A DNA stretch of 64,000 nucleotides from Stakelama pacifica (GTDB lineage: Bacteria > Pseudomonadota > Alphaproteobacteria > Sphingomonadales > Sphingomonadaceae), in assembly GCF_004361835.1 (NCBI RefSeq), contig NZ_SNWD01000002.1:372001-436000 (forward strand). Direction: 5' to 3'. Positions 6,658 to 63,427 of the stretch are shown piece by piece (within the stretch, counting starts at the first letter, position 1; every line of letters begins with the position of its first letter). A program made the translations under genes and the position numbers. Below the pieces are notes generated by a model that was not told the DNA's origin, ran no database searches, and worked only from the letters and a program-made list of their open reading frames with translations.

Positions 6658-7551
6658 ATGGATAACGGCCAAGCGCATGACGGCGTCAACATTCCGCGCA
6701 AAAGCTCCGCAAGAATGCTTCTTCTCGTCGGGCTCATCGCGTTTCTGGCGGGGATCGCCGCAATGGGGCTCGGCTATGCCCTGTGGGGCAACCGGTTCGA
6801 TTTCGGCGGGCGCAAGGAAACGGCAGCCCCCGCCGCGATACGCAGCGCGACATCTCCCGACCCCCAGCGGCTGAATGCGCTTGCCGAGCGGGAGGCGATG
6901 CTCAGCACGCGGATCGACCAGCTGGAGGAGCGGCTGTCGGGAATCGACAGCGACAGCCGCACCGCATCGGGCTTTGCCACGCGTGCCGAAGGGCTGATGG
7001 TCGCCTTTGCCGCGCGGCGGGCGCTCGATCGCGGGCTGCCGCTCGGCTATATCGAGGGGCAGCTTCGCGAACGCTTCGGCGCGGTGCGGCCCAAGGCGGT
7101 GACGATCGTCGTGCGTGCGGCGCGCAGCCCGGTGACGCTGGAGGATCTTCGCCTTGCGCTCGATGCGATGGCGCCGCAGCTGATGAACGGCAATGAGGAT
7201 GCCGGATGGTGGGCGGCGACCCGGCGCGAACTGTCGAACCTGATCGTGGTGCGCCACGAACGCACGCCCAGCCCGCGCGCGACCGACCGGCTGGCGCGTG
7301 CCCGGCGGATGCTCGATGCGGGCAATGTCGACGGCGCGCTGGCCGAAGTATCGCACATGCCGGGGGCCGACGATGCCGCGAGCTGGATGACGGCCGCAAA
7401 ACGCTATATCGAGGCGCGGCGCGCGCTCGATGCGATCGAAACCACCGCGCTGGAAGGCGGGGCGCAGCCGCTCCCCCAGCCCGAACCGGCGGCACCCGAT
7501 GCGCAGCAGGGCGCGCAGGACGATGCGCCCGCGATAACGAACCAGAATTAA
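6658..7551 (+). CDS. Single-pass membrane protein of the hemCD operon, COG4223/mitofilin-like
   Basis: About 297 residues: a short cytosolic N-terminus, one membrane helix ([25 protein letters not shown]), a coiled-coil segment ([21 protein letters not shown]), then an alpha-helical domain ending in a proline- and alanine-rich tail. Proteins of this build follow hemD in many alphaproteobacteria and resemble both HemX of enterobacteria and the mitofilin (Mic60) family; the function is not established here. I choose the ATG at 6658 because AAGGA lies five bases before it; the ATG at 6634 has no such site. Confidence 0.72.
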
Positions 7552-7570
7552 GGCCGGAATTAAGGAACGG

Positions 7571-8758
7571 ATGATGACAGGTATGGGCCGGTTCGACTGG
7601 CAGGACCCTTTCGCACTCGATGCACAACTGACCGACGAAGAGCGGATGGTGCGCGACACCGCGCATAATTACGCCCGCGAAAAGCTGCTGCCGCGCGTCG
7701 GCTCCGCATTCGAGCGCGAGGAATTCGATCGCGACATCATGTCGGAAATGGGCGCGCTCGGCCTGCTGGGCGCGACGGTGCCGGTCGAATATGGCGGGGC
7801 GGGCCTTGGCTATGTCAGCTATGGGCTGGTCGCGCGTGAGGTGGAGGCAGTCGACAGCGGCTATCGCAGCGCGATGAGCGTGCAGTCGAGCCTCGTGATG
7901 CACCCGATCAACGCCTATGGCACCGAGGCGCAGAAGCAGAAATATCTGCCCAAACTGGCGACCGGCGAATGGGTCGGCTGTTTCGGCCTGACCGAACCCG
8001 ATGCCGGGTCCGATCCGGGCGGCATGAAGACGCGGGCGAAAAAGATCGATGGCGGCTATTCGCTGTCGGGGTCGAAAATGTGGATCACCAATTCGCCGAT
8101 CGCGGATGTCTTCGTCGTCTGGGCCAAGTCCGACGCGCATGACGGCAAGATCAAAGGCTTCGTCCTCGAAAAAGGGATGAAGGGCCTGTCCGCGCCGAAG
8201 ATCGAGGGCAAGCTGAGCTTGCGCGCATCAGTCACCGGCGAAATCGTGATGGACGAGGTCAAGGTTGGCGAGGATGCGCTCCTCCCCAATGTCGAGGGGC
8301 TGAAAGGGCCGTTCGGCTGTCTCAACCGCGCTCGCTATGGCATCGCATGGGGATCGATGGGCGCGGCGGAATTCTGCATGCACGCCGCGCGGCAATATAC
8401 GCTCGACCGGCACCAGTTCGGCGTACCGCTTGCCTCCAAACAGCTCGTTCAGATCAAGCTCGCCGATATGGAAACGGAGATTGCGCTGGGGCTTCAGGGC
8501 TGTCTGCGCGCAGGCCGGATGTTCGATGAGGGCAGCCTTGCACCCGAAACCATCTCGATCCTGAAACGCAACAATTGCGGCAAGGCGCTCGCCATCGCCC
8601 GCGTCGCGCGCGACATGCATGGCGGCAACGGGATTTCGGGCGAATTTCATGTGATCCGCCACGCGATCAATCTGGAAACGGTCAACACTTATGAAGGGAC
8701 GCATGACGTCCATGGCCTGATCCTCGGCCGCGCGATCACCGGCATTCCCGCCTTTTAA
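7571..8758 (+). CDS. Acyl-CoA dehydrogenase, probably glutaryl-CoA dehydrogenase
   Basis: FAD enzyme of 395 residues. It has the family motifs [18 protein letters not shown] and [18 protein letters not shown] (flavin and acyl-CoA binding). The C-terminal [18 protein letters not shown] contains the catalytic glutamate in the TYEGTHDVH context typical of glutaryl-CoA dehydrogenases. That enzyme oxidises and decarboxylates glutaryl-CoA to crotonyl-CoA in lysine, tryptophan and glutarate breakdown. The call is strengthened by the CoA-transferase 450 bases downstream, of a type that can make glutaryl-CoA from glutarate. AAGGAAC stands before the ATG at 7571. Confidence 0.85.
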
Positions 8759-57806: not shown

Positions 57807-58184
57807 TCAGGCCCGATCGAGCAGGCACGTCAGCCGGGCAGCCGCAATCGGGCGGGCAGGATCGTCCTGCCATGCATGCGCCTCGACATTCGCGATCCGG
57901 GTGCCGAGGCGGATGATCGTTCCGACCGCACGGGTCGGTTTTTCGCGCCCCCCGCGCATATAATCGACCGTCACATTGACCGGCTTGATCCGCGCCTCCG
58001 CCTCACCCAGCGCATTATAGAGCGCTGCGATCGCCGCCATTTCGAGCAGGCCACCGATCGCGCCGCCATGGACGAAGCCGGGCCGCCCGGTCACATCGCG
58101 GGCGAACGGCATGACGAGCACCGGCGCGCCTTCTCCCGTCTCGACCGACAGGCCCAGCAGATCGGCATAAGGCGGCAGCTTCAT
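57807..58184 (-). CDS. Hotdog-fold thioesterase (PaaI-like)
   Basis: 125 residues: hotdog motif GRPGFVHGGAIGGLLEMAAIAALYNALGE with the conserved HGG and the following acidic helix residue, then RIKPVNVTVDYMRGG and a last strand AHAWQDD. Acyl-CoA thioesterase of unknown substrate. Starts four bases inside the stop of the upstream thioesterase (ATGA), so they are translated together, probably as a hetero-oligomer or tandem pair. Confidence 0.85.
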   Translation of the reverse strand: MKLPPYADLLGLSVETGEGAPVLVMPFARDVTGRPGFVHGGAIGGLLEMAAIAALYNALGEAEARIKPVNVTVDYMRGGREKPTRAVGTIIRLGTRIANVEAHAWQDDPARPIAAARLTCLLDRA

Positions 58185-58618
58185 TTGCGGTCCAGCAGCA
58201 TGAAGGTGCCGGCGACATGGGCGAGCGGATCGTCCGGATCGCCGTCATGCGCATGGCCGCGCACAAAGGCGATCGAGCGCGTGACGCGATAGCATTCGCC
58301 ACGGCCGATCACCGTCCGGTGCGGGCTGGCGGGGCGGAGATAATCGATGCGCAGGTCAAGCGTGGCGTGCGGCAGAAAGGCGCCGCGCTTCAGCCAGACC
58401 GCGCCGCTGCACGCCATGTCCATCAGCGCAAGGATCGGCCCCGAAGCAAGGATGCCGCGGGCTTCGTCGCCGATCAGCTTCGCATCATAGCCAAGCGCCA
58501 GTTCGCACCAGTCATCGCCATGCGCATGATAGTCCATGCCGAGCGCATTGCCGTGCAGGTCGAAGCGCCGGGCGAACAGCGCCTGCGGATCGAAAGAGGC
58601 CGGTTGTGCGGACGACAT
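58181..58618 (-). CDS. Hotdog-fold thioesterase (PaaI-like), second of a tandem pair
   Basis: 145 residues. The hotdog core is seen as CELALGYDAKLIGDEARGILASGPILALMDMACSGAVWL, with a substitution of the usual HGG (here ILASG), then ATLDLRIDYLRPASPHRTVIGRGECYRVTRSIAFVRGHAHDGD. The loss of the canonical His suggests altered or lost catalysis, so it may be a structural partner of the downstream paralogue. ATG at 58618; divergent from the small-peptide cluster. Confidence 0.8.
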   Translation of the reverse strand: MSSAQPASFDPQALFARRFDLHGNALGMDYHAHGDDWCELALGYDAKLIGDEARGILASGPILALMDMACSGAVWLKRGAFLPHATLDLRIDYLRPASPHRTVIGRGECYRVTRSIAFVRGHAHDGDPDDPLAHVAGTFMLLDRK

Positions 58619-58688
58619 GATAGCGGCGTACCGCGGGCGGCGCTTACCCGCAATATGGCATGCCCGCCGCTGCCTTTCGCCGCCGAAC

Positions 58689-58704
58689 GTTACAGCGATG
58701 TAAC
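58689..58704. promoter_or_regulatory. Palindrome GTTACAGCGATGTAAC
   Basis: Perfect GTTACA-GCGA-TGTAAC inverted repeat between the divergent thioesterase and small-peptide starts, 66 bases ahead of the peptide ATG. Suits an operator for a dimeric regulator, plausibly the winged-helix protein encoded three genes downstream. Confidence 0.5.
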
Positions 58705-58770
58705 TACCGTGCCGCGCGTCGCGGGGGATAGCATTTGCGCGGTTTATCGAACCCACAGGGAGTCCATGCC

Positions 58771-58902
58771 ATGCCGCGCATTATTTTCAGCGACGCCGAG
58801 ATTGTCGACCTGCCCGTATCGCTTGCGCTTGCCGGAGCGATCGGCGGCGAGCCAGCCGGGGACGGCATATTGGAAATCATCGTCGCGGTCGCCAATGGCT
58901 GA
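58771..58902 (+). CDS. 43-residue peptide, candidate precursor of a peptide-modifying cluster
   Basis: Not recognised. The peptide starts MPRIIFSDAEIVDLPVSLAL and continues with Gly/Ala-rich AGAIGGEPAGDG and ILEIIVAVANG. The first part is acidic and hydrophobic, like a leader, and a GG motif occurs before EPAG. AGGGAG lies eight bases before the ATG at 58771; a second ATG at 58766 opens another frame that makes Arg/Ser-rich protein with no features. No Cys and no Ser/Thr-rich core is visible. Followed three bases later by the interrupted gene. A role as a RiPP-type substrate is inferred only from position and size. Confidence 0.55.
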   Translation: MPRIIFSDAEIVDLPVSLALAGAIGGEPAGDGILEIIVAVANG

Positions 58903-58905
58903 GCG

Positions 58906-59778
58906 ATGACGGCAGCGGAGCGAGGGAGCGGCGGCGGCGATCCGGGCGGTGTCGCGCGCGCGGTCGCCGATGCTGCGGATGCGGATGGCGCGTTGGCGAT
59001 CCTCGAAAGGGCGCTCGGCGATCCGGCATAGGTTGCCGCGCTGATCGCGCCGATGCTGGCGCAGCTGCGCGACGATCCGCTGGCTCAGCCATCTTTGCCG
59101 GTGAAGCGCGACGGCGACCGGATCGCGATTCTGTTGCACGATGATGTCGCCTTCAGCCTGTCGGCGCGGATCGTCGATCCCGACGGCGGTTCGGCGGTCG
59201 AGGCGCTACCCGACCGGCTTGCCCTGTCAGGACAGCGAAGTGTCACGCGCTATCTCGCCGCCGAGGGGGCGACGCTCCATCGCTGGCGGCTGGCGGGTGA
59301 TCGGCTGCATCCGGCCGGGACGCTTGGCTTGCACAGCGGGATGATCGTGCGCTGCGACGGCAGGGTGGAGGCGCAGCATGCGGCCCCCGGCAGCGGCGCT
59401 GCGCTGGCCGCGCTGACGGCCACGCTTCACGGGCGGGCGACGGACCCTATCCGAGAATATGCGCTGGACGACGGCGCGCTGCTGCGCACCGGCACGCGCG
59501 ATCTCGACGCATCGCGGCGCCGGATGCTGTTGCGGCTGTTGCGCGAAACCGGGCATCCGCGCGCCGATGCTGCATTCGATGCTGCAAGCCGTCACCCGCA
59601 ATATTTTCTGCGCTGGGAGGCGATGCGCGAATGGCTGGGCCATGACGCATGCGCAGCGCTGCCCCGGCTGCGCGAGATGGCAGCGAGCGACCCCGCCCGA
59701 GACGTGCGCTGTGCGGCGACCGAAATGGCGCGGCGAGTCGAGGCGAAAATCGCGACTGAGGTGCGATGCCCCGCCTGA
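58906..59778 (+). pseudogene. Unknown protein gene interrupted by an in-frame amber codon
   Basis: The frame opens with ATG at 58906, runs 41 codons (..LAILERALGDPA), meets TAG at 59029-59031, and continues for 248 more codons to 59778 without another stop. The sequence reads smoothly across the stop. A restart at the ATG at 59053 (MLAQLRDDPLAQPSLPVKRDG) would give a 241-residue protein. The C-terminal part (PQYFLRWEAMREWLGHDACAALPRLREMAASDPARDVRCAATEMARR) looks like alpha-helical HEAT-type repeats. Family not recognised. Overlaps the next gene by 13 bases. Could be a recent nonsense mutation, sequencing error or readthrough. Confidence 0.6.
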
Positions 59779-60689
59779 TCGATACCGGGCCGGTGTCGCC
59801 CGTCTCCTATGACGCTTTTGCCGAGGCGCTGGCGGTGAGCCCGATCGATATTCGCGATGAAGATGGCTTTGCGTCGCTGGCGCCGCTGCTCGCCCGGCTG
59901 GGGGCCAATCGCGACTTTCTGGCCGAAGCGGCGATTGCGGCGCTTGAACGCAGCCCGGCGGCGAAGGCGGGACACGGCTACGCGCCGCAGGTGCTGCTGC
60001 TCGATTCGCCCGATCCGCGCTTCGTGCTGCGCGCCGCTTTCTGGCCCGCCGCGGGCGACGCAGCGATGCGCGCGAGCGGCGGCGACGCCTTTGTGTATGG
60101 CCTGACCCACAATCATAATTTCGCGTTTCTGACGCATGGCTATATCGGCCCCGGCTATGACAGCGACTATTGGGCGTTCGATCCCGATAGCGGTGCATCG
60201 CGGCCCGGCGATGCTGCACAGCTTCGCTTTGCCGGTCGTTATCGCCTCAGCTCCGGCACTACGATGCTGGTTCACGCGCATCGCGACGTGCACCGGCAAA
60301 TGCCGCCCGAGCGCTTTTCGGTCTCGCTCAACATCCTTGCGCGGCCCGGCGGCACGCCGTGGCAGCCGCAATATCGGTTCGATCCGGCGCGCGACATCAT
60401 CACCGGCGAGATCGCGACGCTGCCCTCGCACGCGCTGATCGCGCTGGCGGCGCATTGTTCGCCCGCCGGGCGCGATCTTGCCGCGAGCTTTGCGCAAGAC
60501 CATCGCTGCCCGCGCATGCGGAAAGCCGCGCTCTCCGCCTGTTGCGCGGCGCGGCTGCCCGATGCGGTGCGAATCGCCGAGGGCGCGGCGTCGGACGGCG
60601 CGACGGCGCTCGCCCGCCATGCCCGCGCGCTGCTCGGTCGCTCCGAAACGGATCAGTCTACCCCTGTGCAGGACCGCGCCGCGCGATAA
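59766..60689 (+). CDS. Cupin-like candidate oxygenase of the small-peptide cluster
   Basis: 307 residues, family not named with confidence. The middle has an HxH pair (His115 and His117 in THNHNFAFLTHGYIGPGYDSDYWAFD) and a later His-rich stretch VHAHRDVHRQMPPERFSVSLNI (His170, 172, 176), a spacing expected of a cupin-type metal site with the second strand pair after about 55 residues. An N-terminal helical region and a C-terminal HEAT-like helical tail flank it. No transposase-type catalytic motif is seen. It lies next to a small-peptide gene and a regulator. Confidence 0.6.
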   Translation: MPRLIDTGPVSPVSYDAFAEALAVSPIDIRDEDGFASLAPLLARLGANRDFLAEAAIAALERSPAAKAGHGYAPQVLLLDSPDPRFVLRAAFWPAAGDAAMRASGGDAFVYGLTHNHNFAFLTHGYIGPGYDSDYWAFDPDSGASRPGDAAQLRFAGRYRLSSGTTMLVHAHRDVHRQMPPERFSVSLNILARPGGTPWQPQYRFDPARDIITGEIATLPSHALIALAAHCSPAGRDLAASFAQDHRCPRMRKAALSACCAARLPDAVRIAEGAASDGATALARHARALLGRSETDQSTPVQDRAAR

Positions 60690-60701
60690 GGGCGTTCGCG
60701 C

Positions 60702-61334
60702 ATGAACCGCGCCGTGGCCATTGATGTCGATTTGCCCGGCCTGTTCGGCGCGATGCTGGCGCGCGACCTCGACGCCGTGCCCGCTGATGCCGCCGCGCGG
60801 CGATCGCCGCTGCTCACCCGCTGGGACGCGGGGCGGCAATGCGCGGCGGCGCGAGTCGCTGCGCTGCGCGAATCGGGGTGGCACGGGCCGCTGATGCTGC
60901 TCGCCGGTCGCGGCGCGCCGCTTGCCGAGGCGCTGGATGCGGGCGTCGAGGATGCCGCGACGACCGATATGGCGGCGGGCGAGATTGCCGCGCGGCTGGC
61001 GCGGATCGTCCGGCGCACGCCTGTGGCTGCGCTGCGCATCGGCGATGTCATGATCGATCCGCAGCGGCGCGATGCGTTTCGCGGCGGCAACCCGCTCGGC
61101 CTGTTGCCGCGCGAATTTCTGCTGCTGAGCTATCTTGCCGAACGGCGCGACCGCGCGGTCAGCCGTGCCGAATTGCTGCGCGCGGTGTGGAAGCTGGATT
61201 TCGATCCGGGCACCAATGTCGTTCAGGTCCATGTATCGCGGCTGCGCGCCCGACTGCGCCGCAGTGCGGCCCCGCTGATGCTCCATACCGAATATCGTAA
61301 AGGGTATCGCCTCACCGCCCCGCGCCCGGCATAA
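60702..61334 (+). CDS. OmpR-type winged-helix regulator with a degenerate receiver domain
   Basis: 210 residues. The C-terminal DNA-binding domain (PREFLLLSYLAERRDRAVSRAELLRAVWKLDFDPGTNVVQVHVSRLRARLRR...LHTEYRKGYRL) is a clear Trans_reg_C winged helix. The N-terminal part keeps the tail of a receiver fold (PLMLLAGRGAPLAEALDAGVEDAATTDMAAGEIAARLARIVRR) but lacks an evident phospho-aspartate, so it is probably not phosphorylated. No kinase is adjacent. Eleven bases after the cupin-like gene, so it may autoregulate the cluster. Confidence 0.8.
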   Translation: MNRAVAIDVDLPGLFGAMLARDLDAVPADAAARRSPLLTRWDAGRQCAAARVAALRESGWHGPLMLLAGRGAPLAEALDAGVEDAATTDMAAGEIAARLARIVRRTPVAALRIGDVMIDPQRRDAFRGGNPLGLLPREFLLLSYLAERRDRAVSRAELLRAVWKLDFDPGTNVVQVHVSRLRARLRRSAAPLMLHTEYRKGYRLTAPRPA

Positions 61335-61363
61335 GCCGAAGCGAGCAACCAAGGAGGCGAAGC

Positions 61364-62149
61364 ATGACGCAAGCGCGCATTACCCTGACCATCGATCGCG
61401 GCGTGGCCGATGTCCGGCTGAACCGGCCCGACAAGCTGAACGCGCTCGACCCGGCGATGTTTGCGGGCATCGCCGATACCATCGCAACGCTGGACGCGAC
61501 GCCGGCCTTACGCGCCGTGGTGCTGTCAGGCGAAGGCCGCGCCTTTTGCGCCGGGCTGGATATGGCGAGCATGGCGTCGGGCGATAACGACACCGATCTG
61601 CTGGCGCGCGACCATGGCGATGCCAATCTGGCGCAGCAGGTCGCCTGGGGCTGGCGCAAGCTCGCCGTACCGGTGATCGGCGCAGTGCATGGGCTGGCCT
61701 TCGGCGGCGGGCTGCAGATCCTGTCGGGCGCCGATATCCGCTTTGCCGCAGCCGAAACGCGCTTTTCGGTGATGGAAATGAAATGGGGAATCGTCCCCGA
61801 TATGGGCGGGTACGCGCTGTGGCGCGGACTGGTGCGCGACGATGTTCTGCGCGAGCTGATCTATACCGCGCGCGAGTTCGAAACGGACGAGGCAGTCGAA
61901 GCCGGTTTCGTCACGCATATCGCCGATGATCCGCGCGCGGCGGCGCTGGCGCTTGCCCGCGACATTGCGGGGCGCAACCCGCATGCGATCCGTGCGGCGA
62001 AGCGGCTTGCCAATCTCGCCTCCGATGCATCATCCGCCGATATCCTGATCGCCGAAAGCGACGAGCAGGTAAAATTGCTACGCAGCCCCAACCAGATCGA
62101 GGCGGTCGCCGCGAATATGGCGAAGCGCGCGCCCGATTTTACCGACTGA
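61364..62149 (+). CDS. Enoyl-CoA hydratase/isomerase family protein
   Basis: 261-residue crotonase-fold protein: VRLNRPDKLNALDPAMF, oxyanion-hole GEGRAFCAGLDMAS and AVHGLAFGGGLQILSGADIRFAA. In classical hydratases two glutamates are catalytic; here one site reads EMKWGIVPDMGG, with Asp at the usual second glutamate position, so isomerase or thioesterase-like activity is possible. AAGGAGG precedes the ATG. Followed by a thiolase, suggesting fatty-acid or related acyl-CoA degradation. Confidence 0.82.
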   Translation: MTQARITLTIDRGVADVRLNRPDKLNALDPAMFAGIADTIATLDATPALRAVVLSGEGRAFCAGLDMASMASGDNDTDLLARDHGDANLAQQVAWGWRKLAVPVIGAVHGLAFGGGLQILSGADIRFAAAETRFSVMEMKWGIVPDMGGYALWRGLVRDDVLRELIYTAREFETDEAVEAGFVTHIADDPRAAALALARDIAGRNPHAIRAAKRLANLASDASSADILIAESDEQVKLLRSPNQIEAVAANMAKRAPDFTD

Positions 62150-62230
62150 ACCTCTCTTGCCCCGTCGCGCCGCCCGGTTAGAGTAAGCGCCCATACCGAA
62201 GGTTCGAAACAACCGAGAGAGAGGATCGCC

Positions 62231-63427
62231 ATGCGGGAAGCCGCCATTGTCTCCACTGCCCGCACCGGCATCGGGAAAGCCTATCGCGGGGCGTTCAACG
62301 ATACCGAGGCGCCGGTGCTGGGTGCGCATGTCATGAATGCGGCGATCCGCCGGGCGGGGATCGACCCGGCTCGGATCGACGACATCTTCTGGGGCGTGGG
62401 CAATCAATGGGGGACAAGCGGCGCGAATGCTGCACGCATGGCGGCGTTCGCGGCTGGCCTGCCGCAAAGCGTGCCGGGATTTACGCTCGATCGTAAATGC
62501 GGGTCGGGGCTGACCGCGCTGGCGCTCGCAGCACGCTCGATCATGTGCAACGAAATCGATGTCGCGCTGACCGGCGGGATGGAGTCGATCAGCCATACCG
62601 TCACGGCGGACGCGCCGCGCTATCGCAACGCATCGGTGCTCGCGAACCAGCCGCATGCCTATATGCCGATGATCGAAACGGCGGAGATCGTCGCCGAACG
62701 CTATGGCATTGCCCGCGAGGCGCAGGATGCCTTCGCTGCCGTCAGCCAACAGCGCGCGACCGCCGGGCTGGCGCAGGGCGCGTTCGAAGAAGAGATCGCG
62801 CCGATCACCGTCGAAAAGGCACTGTTCGACAAGGAAGGCAAGCGGATCGGGACCGAGACGGTGACGCTGTCGGCCGATGAGGGGATTCGCCCCGGCACCA
62901 CCGCCGAAGTCCTGTCGGGCCTGAAACCGGTGTGGAAGAACGGCGAGGTGGTGAAACAGGGGCGCAATGTCACTGCGGGCAATGCGAGCCAGCTGTCCGA
63001 CGGCGCGGCGGCGCAGATCGTCATGGACCGCAAAACCGCGCAAGCCGAGGGGCGCGAGATACTGGGCATCTATCGCGGCTTTCAGGTCGCGGGATGCGCG
63101 CCGGAGGAGATGGGCATCGGCCCGGTCTTCGCGATCCCGAAGCTGCTCGACCGGGCGGGGCTGCGCGTCGAGGATATCGGCCTGTGGGAAATCAACGAAG
63201 CCTTTGCCAGCCAGTGCCTCTATTGCCGCGATCAGCTGGGCATCGATCCCGAAAAGCTGAACGTCGACGGCGGCGCGATCGCAGTGGGCCATCCCTTCGG
63301 CATGACCGGCGCGCGGCTGGTCGGCCATGCCCTGATCGCAGCGAAGAAGCGCGGGGTGCGCTGGGCGGTCGTGTCGATGTGCACTGCGGGCGGAATGGGT
63401 GCGGCGGGATTGTTTGAGATCGTTTGA
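62231..63427 (+). CDS. Acetyl-CoA acyltransferase (thiolase)
   Basis: 398 residues. [19 protein letters not shown] at the N-terminus; the active-site cysteine in [37 protein letters not shown]; His in [19 protein letters not shown] and the second Cys in [19 protein letters not shown]. Cleaves 3-ketoacyl-CoA or condenses acetyl-CoA units. It is likely the partner of the crotonase 80 bases upstream. Confidence 0.93.

Follow-up and report, generated by a model that had tools for sequence, protein, structure and literature searches.

A probable RiPP-like peptide-maturation cassette around a predicted cysteine-dioxygenase-fold oxygenase in Stakelama pacifica and its relatives

In the 3.98-Mb genome of Stakelama pacifica, a palindrome, a 43-codon open reading frame and three larger genes follow one another closely, and a first-pass annotation, made from the sequence alone, proposed that they form a peptide-modifying system of a type it did not recognise. 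This raises the question of whether the small frame is a gene at all and what its neighbours, named B, C and R here, might do to its product. The window is the whole stretch of 64,000 nucleotides that was analysed (contig NZ_SNWD01000002.1, positions 372,001 to 436,000). On its + strand, the order is palindrome, peptide, B, C and R, with the following features:

58689-58704, no strand: palindrome GTTACAGCGATGTAAC (arms GTTACA and TGTAAC around GCGA), probable operator; read directly
58757-58762, + strand: AGGGAG, ribosome-binding site of the peptide gene, 8 nt ahead of its ATG; read directly
58771-58902, + strand: 43-aa precursor-like peptide (43-codon ORF); from the family HMM and dN/dS
58906-59778, + strand: B, predicted cysteine dioxygenase (CDO)-fold paralogue of C that ends in HEAT repeats, interrupted in this copy; from homologues in relatives, a profile match and a model
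59029-59031, + strand: in-frame TAG interrupting B at codon 42
59766-60689, + strand: C, 307 aa, predicted 3-His non-heme metal oxygenase with a C-terminal helical, HEAT-like region; from a model, PDB matches and invariant His residues
60108-60116, + strand: codons of H115-N116-H117, holding the first two predicted metal ligands; from alignments
60291-60293, + strand: codon of H176, third predicted metal ligand; from alignments and register with the third His of thiol dioxygenases
60702-61334, + strand: R, winged-helix (Trans_reg_C) regulator with a pseudo-receiver; Pfam PF00486, E=1e-20

Upstream of the cassette, two PaaI-like thioesterase genes lie on the opposite strand, and the enoyl-CoA hydratase and thiolase genes found downstream are ordinary. 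An antisense ORF at 59592-61352 (- strand) was discarded as spurious, since it overlaps B, C and R. The tight spacing described earlier holds at these positions, and the 13-nt overlap of B and C seen in the window recurs in 49 of 73 loci.

The first-pass annotation had staked its reading on a small gene being conserved beside the cupin-like protein, here C, and this is what the relatives contain. In the 20 loci examined in full, an ORF of 39-63 aa lies directly upstream of B, and B directly upstream of C. A peptide HMM, seeded with 11 peptides and then trained on its own hits, was applied to 101 loci (the window, these 20 and 80 more, with a few genomes included twice) and matched just upstream of B in 95 of them. 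Five of the six loci without a hit stop at a contig edge before the peptide and the sixth (L119) has a degraded B, which leaves a match in 95 of the 96 testable loci. The HMM was specific: when all 7,782 small ORFs of the loci were scanned, a second hit was obtained in only two loci, in both cases preceding further cassette genes. The peptide is, thus, co-inherited with the adjacent paralogues B and C. When 176 peptide pairs were compared by codon, the median dN/dS was 0.27 and the ratio was below 0.5 in 91% of pairs, which indicates that the frame is translated and selected; on this codon evidence, we take the peptide to be a translated product under purifying selection. The 43-residue gene and its ribosome-binding site are where the earlier reading had placed them, and most relatives have a purine-rich site in the position of AGGGAG.

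The window peptide combines the N-terminal motif (I)VDLPV..ALAGAI with the hydrophobic tail ILEIIVAVANG. In the family, the consensus (I)D(I/L)xx(L/I)P(D/E)LxTx(V/T)Gx(F)G(S/A) is followed by a variable linker and a hydrophobic segment, the latter usually after an acidic residue, and L19 and G27 (alignment columns) are conserved in 97% and 94% of the 88 distinct peptides, respectively. The tail is conserved in character and is not hypervariable as in many RiPP families, and most sphingomonad loci contain one peptide. No Pfam or NCBIfam family was found for the peptide or its relatives, and a matching peptide was not recognised in the distant relatives L148 and L172. A double-glycine leader was rejected: some peptides have EVGG, but most lack GG, and the spacing of the hydrophobic residues does not fit. 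A membrane-anchored micro-protein was rejected as well, as many hydrophobic tails, including that of the window, are just 9-12 residues long. Cysteine is present in only 30 of the 88 distinct peptides, and its oxidation was, therefore, discarded as the general reaction on the peptide.

No Pfam, NCBIfam or PHROG family was found for C, which gave only a sub-threshold HEAT match. Structure prediction, proposed as a check in the first-pass annotation, was run with 51 relatives and yielded a model with a mean pLDDT of 90.1, in which residues 8-217 resemble the cysteine/thiol dioxygenases of the PDB (Z 13.4-12.4). The matches included mercaptosuccinate dioxygenase (Z 13.4, rmsd 3.6, 170 residues), a Pseudomonas aeruginosa thiol dioxygenase (Z 13.1, 24% identity over 162 residues) and the rat and human cysteine dioxygenases (Z about 12.5), while Z was about 10 for plant PCO and human ADO. 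The HxH...H spacing read from the 307-residue protein corresponds to H115, H117 and H176, all invariant among 52 sequences, and R89, W93, D174, Q178, S185, N189 and Q202 are likewise invariant in this set. Comparison of the C profile with known thiol dioxygenases gave a weak match (pairwise E=0.0012, probability 19.5%), with HDH and the third His in register; the presumed kinship of C to these enzymes rests on predicted fold and motif register. Sequence searches of PDB and Pfam with C were empty. The CDO_I model (PF05995) matched nothing in the Stakelama pacifica genome, and among 29 C members, neither this model nor the Pfam models for JmjC and 2-oxoglutarate hydroxylases gave a match. From the model, C is predicted to be a 3-His non-heme metal oxygenase of the cysteine-dioxygenase fold. 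The second-sphere S-x-H-x-Y of thiol dioxygenases is replaced in C by S-x-N-x-(L/M), within SVSLNI(L/M) and with an invariant Asn, and, with its second sphere altered in this way, ordinary thiol dioxygenation is not indicated. A further invariant residue, H246, is located in the C-terminal helical part of the protein.

The gene between the peptide and C had been listed as an unknown protein; it is indeed present, but it is not a gene of a separate kind. Since the copy in the window is broken, B was modelled from the intact homologue of Stakelama flava (pLDDT 93.5), and the top PDB matches of the model were cysteine dioxygenases, with a Z of 13.3 for the Bacillus enzyme. The B profile matches C (E=7.5e-7 over 257 columns), HEAT repeats are found at the C-terminal end, and B homologues occupy the same place in the relatives. 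Conserved His columns are absent from B, the best reaching 25 of 47 sequences versus 52 of 52 at four His columns of C, so that B should be unable to hold the metal site of C. Judged from these alignments, B is a diverged paralogue of C without its metal site. According to the models, both proteins combine the CDO/thiol-dioxygenase cupin fold with HEAT repeats, and only C keeps the three-His site.

The flanks on both sides of the TAG in B align with the intact Stakelama homologue. Read-through of this codon was rejected, as relatives have an ordinary sense position there and a nonsense change or an assembly error is simpler. In Sphingosinithalassobacter portus, B is also broken; the lesion there is another one and involves a change of frame. 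The peptide and C are intact in both genomes. This would mean that B matters less than C or that both copies with a broken B were inactivated recently. Because B is interrupted, the cassette of the window is probably inactive or only partly active.

Some clades extend the cassette by genes for exporters, for another ABC transporter or for a TldD/TldE pair, or by additional precursor paralogues. On plasmid pASTE61-200 of Alteromonas stellipolaris (L171), the order is Yip1, HlyD, ABC ATPase, MacB permease, two peptides, B, C, ABC ATPase and ABC-2 permease, with all genes on the same strand and mostly overlapping. A similar arrangement is found in L181 (HlyD, ATPase, MacB, two peptides, B, C and ABC ATPase), and in L173/L174, three C genes lie within 15 kb, accompanied by Yip1, HlyD and MacB, by an ABC ATPase with an ABC-2-type permease, and by a regulator that contains a Trans_reg_C domain. 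In L178, peptide, B and C are directly followed by TldE-like and TldD-like genes, the latter with the motif HEAIGH. Sphingomonas sp. S2M10 (L129) has two peptide-B-C units, which lead into an ABC exporter gene with a start overlapping the second C. Three tandem peptides go with a single B-C pair in L182; they share the leader LDxLIAxL(D/E)xxV and differ in their aromatic tails. One cassette is located on a plasmid, beside a Tn3 transposase. Transporter and protease genes are absent from the cassette of the window and from most sphingomonad copies.

Compared with the traits of RiPP clusters, a precursor conserved beside tailoring enzymes is seen in 95 of the 96 testable loci, and several precursors share one enzyme set in L182 (three), L181 and L171 (two each). 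A leader protease or an exporter within the cluster is found in L171, L173/L174, L181, L178 and L129, but neither in the window nor in most sphingomonad loci. We consider it probable, at roughly 0.7, that these genes form a compact peptide-maturation cassette, RiPP-like and of undescribed type. The transporters, TldD/TldE genes and precursor paralogues of the relatives lend independent support to the peptide-modifying system proposed earlier; we call the cassette RiPP-like because the modification that would define it is a step that we infer.

In such a cassette, the conserved N-terminal half of the peptide (DI..LP.L..xVG..GS) would serve as the leader, with B and/or the HEAT repeats as its binding site and B as a non-catalytic partner. 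C, using Fe and O2, would oxidise the C-terminal half of the peptide. As most peptides lack Cys, the oxidised residue would probably be a different one. The leader would then be trimmed by a protease, the dedicated TldD/E in one genome and a host enzyme elsewhere, and the product would leave the cell through the ABC/MacAB pump where present, or by host factors elsewhere. Expression of the operon would be controlled by R, perhaps via the upstream palindrome.

The same genes could be read differently. The peptide might be a structural or regulatory subunit of a B-C complex in which C oxidises a small molecule (e.g., a thiol or a carboxylate) and leaves the peptide unmodified. The closest folds to C are those of enzymes acting on small thiols, and the lack of transporter and protease genes in most sphingomonad copies, together with a tail conserved in character and mostly one peptide per locus, would suit a subunit. 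However, the gammaproteobacterial relatives have exporters, TldD/E and up to three precursors per B-C pair, and C has an Asn and a hydrophobic residue where thiol dioxygenases carry their second-sphere His and Tyr, so that we consider this role unlikely. A small hydrophobic peptide that acts unmodified, like a bacteriocin or a toxin, with B, C and the transporters providing immunity or export, seems quite improbable. An invariant metal triad is not expected in an immunity protein, PADLOC gave no defence model match for B, C, R or the peptide, and in L182, a single B-C pair goes with three precursors that are closely related, although hydrophobic tails, ABC-2 and MacAB neighbours in some gammaproteobacteria and the plasmid cassette beside the transposase would be compatible with a bacteriocin.

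The dioxygenase fold by itself could also mean that C is an ordinary cysteine or 3-mercaptopropionate dioxygenase gene beside a chance ORF. This is contradicted by the data and hardly credible: C is missed by Pfam CDO_I and by the PDB sequence search, the small ORF is conserved in nearly all testable loci (95/96) and selected as a protein, and a metal-less paralogue accompanies C in nearly every locus.

Among known systems, C shares with cysteine, 3-mercaptopropionate and mercaptosuccinate dioxygenases its predicted fold and the register of HDH and the third His. It differs from them in its Ser-Asn-Leu/Met second sphere, where they have Ser-His-Tyr, in its extra HEAT domain, in being accompanied by a metal-less paralogue and a peptide gene, and in remaining unmatched by CDO_I. 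In the N-terminal-cysteine dioxygenases, plant PCO and animal ADO, dioxygenases of this fold are known to work on polypeptide substrates, and C resembles them in its cupin fold (Z about 10); unlike in their case, oxidation of an N-terminal Cys cannot be general here, with Cys in 30 of 88 distinct peptides. No description of the cassette was found in the open-access literature, where the nearest precedent found is PbsQ. This JmjC-related cupin belongs to the biphenomycin-like pbs cluster, which also encodes the MNIO PbsC, the RRE partner PbsD and the TldD-type PbsP; PbsQ is a secondary tailoring enzyme beside the MNIO, in company with the TldD-type protease (PMC12257519). Both systems have a short precursor, a metal oxygenase with a non-catalytic partner (both predicted in our case), a TldD-type protease (here in L178) and, in several relatives of the cassette, exporters. 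In contrast to the pbs cluster, the sole predicted oxygenase of the cassette is a 3-His CDO-fold protein and not an MNIO, a radical-SAM or a JmjC/2-oxoglutarate enzyme, and its partner B is the diverged paralogue of C itself instead of an RRE protein.

Searches of Pfam, NCBIfam, PHROGs and PADLOC, the last covering peptide, B, C and R, gave nothing that matches this type of cluster. We see about an even chance that the cassette represents a new class of RiPP systems. Its modifying unit would be a heteromer of two CDO-fold proteins with HEAT repeats, one catalytic and the other metal-less, and the reaction would be an O2-dependent change at a residue other than Cys of a short hydrophobic peptide. 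This class, present in Alpha- and Gammaproteobacteria, would have gone unnoticed because its enzymes and precursors are absent from the curated family libraries searched. If this is true, the CDO fold with a dead paralogue as partner would be an added family of RiPP tailoring enzymes, and the profiles of C, B and the peptide offer a sequence handle on a cluster type that Pfam, NCBIfam, PHROGs and PADLOC do not match.

As to regulation, the palindrome noticed ahead of the peptide is present and is beyond chance. The only match to RTTACANNNNTKTAAY in all 3.98 Mb of the genome is the one at 58689-58704, and an element within 3 mismatches of GTTACANNNNTGTAAC was found in 41 of 95 loci versus about 5 in shuffles; in many relatives, the palindrome-like element is placed 70-100 nt upstream of the peptide start. 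From this recurrence, the palindrome is probably the operator of the cassette. The Trans_reg_C match of R (E=1e-20) agrees with the winged-helix regulator called earlier, as does its receiver half, which is variable and degenerate, and the N-terminal half lacks a conserved phospho-acceptor Asp in 27 sequences. R has, thus, the winged helix but not the phosphorylatable receiver of a two-component response regulator. An R homologue follows C on the same strand in 26 of 80 loci, these being the best of 342 stretches encoding C relatives. Some clades without a linked R keep the palindrome element, and the binding of R to it is, therefore, put forward only as a proposal.

A scan of the genome collection with the single C protein found nothing. 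The 342 stretches were obtained from a species-level collection by a degenerate-pattern scan with the C alignment; they come mainly from Sphingomonadales, and the best 80 all bear sphingomonad-type or unresolved alphaproteobacterial names. Stakelama flava is among the relatives, with 63% identity. C relatives were detected in 5 of 385 genomes of a class sample (one outside the family) and in 15 of 398 of a phylum sample (two outside the family), most with a recognisable peptide-B-C order. Two families of gammaproteobacterial type, a class assigned from plasmid hits in Alteromonas and Vibrio and not certain for every single genome, contained them in 6 genomes each, out of 149 and 148 sampled. 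B, the metal-less paralogue, accompanies C in nearly every locus. No relative was found in the viral contigs searched, and there is, hence, no sign of a phage gene set. Within the family, C homologues were found in 74 of 200 sampled genomes, from 41 of 96 genera; since these 74 genomes carry the cassette, it probably belongs to the regular biology of sphingomonads.

Disrupted copies of B, the paralogue of C, were found in two genomes, the Stakelama pacifica window and Sphingosinithalassobacter portus. The lesion in the latter differs from the nonsense codon of the window, and both genomes retain an intact peptide and an intact C. In C itself, a fourth invariant histidine, H246, is present in all 52 sequences and lies within the helical part at the C terminus.
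59029-59031, nonsense codon in B
60501-60503, codon of C residue H246

In the relative carrying locus L182, a single C/B set adjoins three tandem peptides (7320-8008 of the reversed locus), which have a common leader and differ in their aromatic tails (IWVFIWLR, LIWYLRFFG and LFWLWRKYG), making them promising natural variants. Cassette genes are also repeated in a Sphingomonas clade comprising S. gei, S. trueperi and relatives (L087, L094, L127 and L129), where the first C is followed by a winged-helix/MarR-like protein of 163-164 residues and then by more cassette genes; in L129, these form another complete peptide-B-C unit, which continues into an ABC exporter.

A short B-C-like pair is located on a Vibrio sp. 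ED002 plasmid (NZ_CP080241.1, 10254-12847), with a C of about 225 residues apparently devoid of the HEAT region. No peptide matching the cassette family was recognised at this locus. The pair is neighboured by a Tn3 transposase and restriction-modification genes.

The window cassette is flanked by the following genes.
57807-58184, minus strand, PaaI-like thioesterase
58181-58621, minus strand, adjacent PaaI-like thioesterase
61364-63427, enoyl-CoA hydratase and thiolase, immediately 3' of the cassette

The two thioesterase genes are oriented divergently to the cassette, and many sphingomonads share their synteny with it. Enoyl-CoA hydratase and thiolase genes also lie downstream in two same-genus genomes (L151 and L152).
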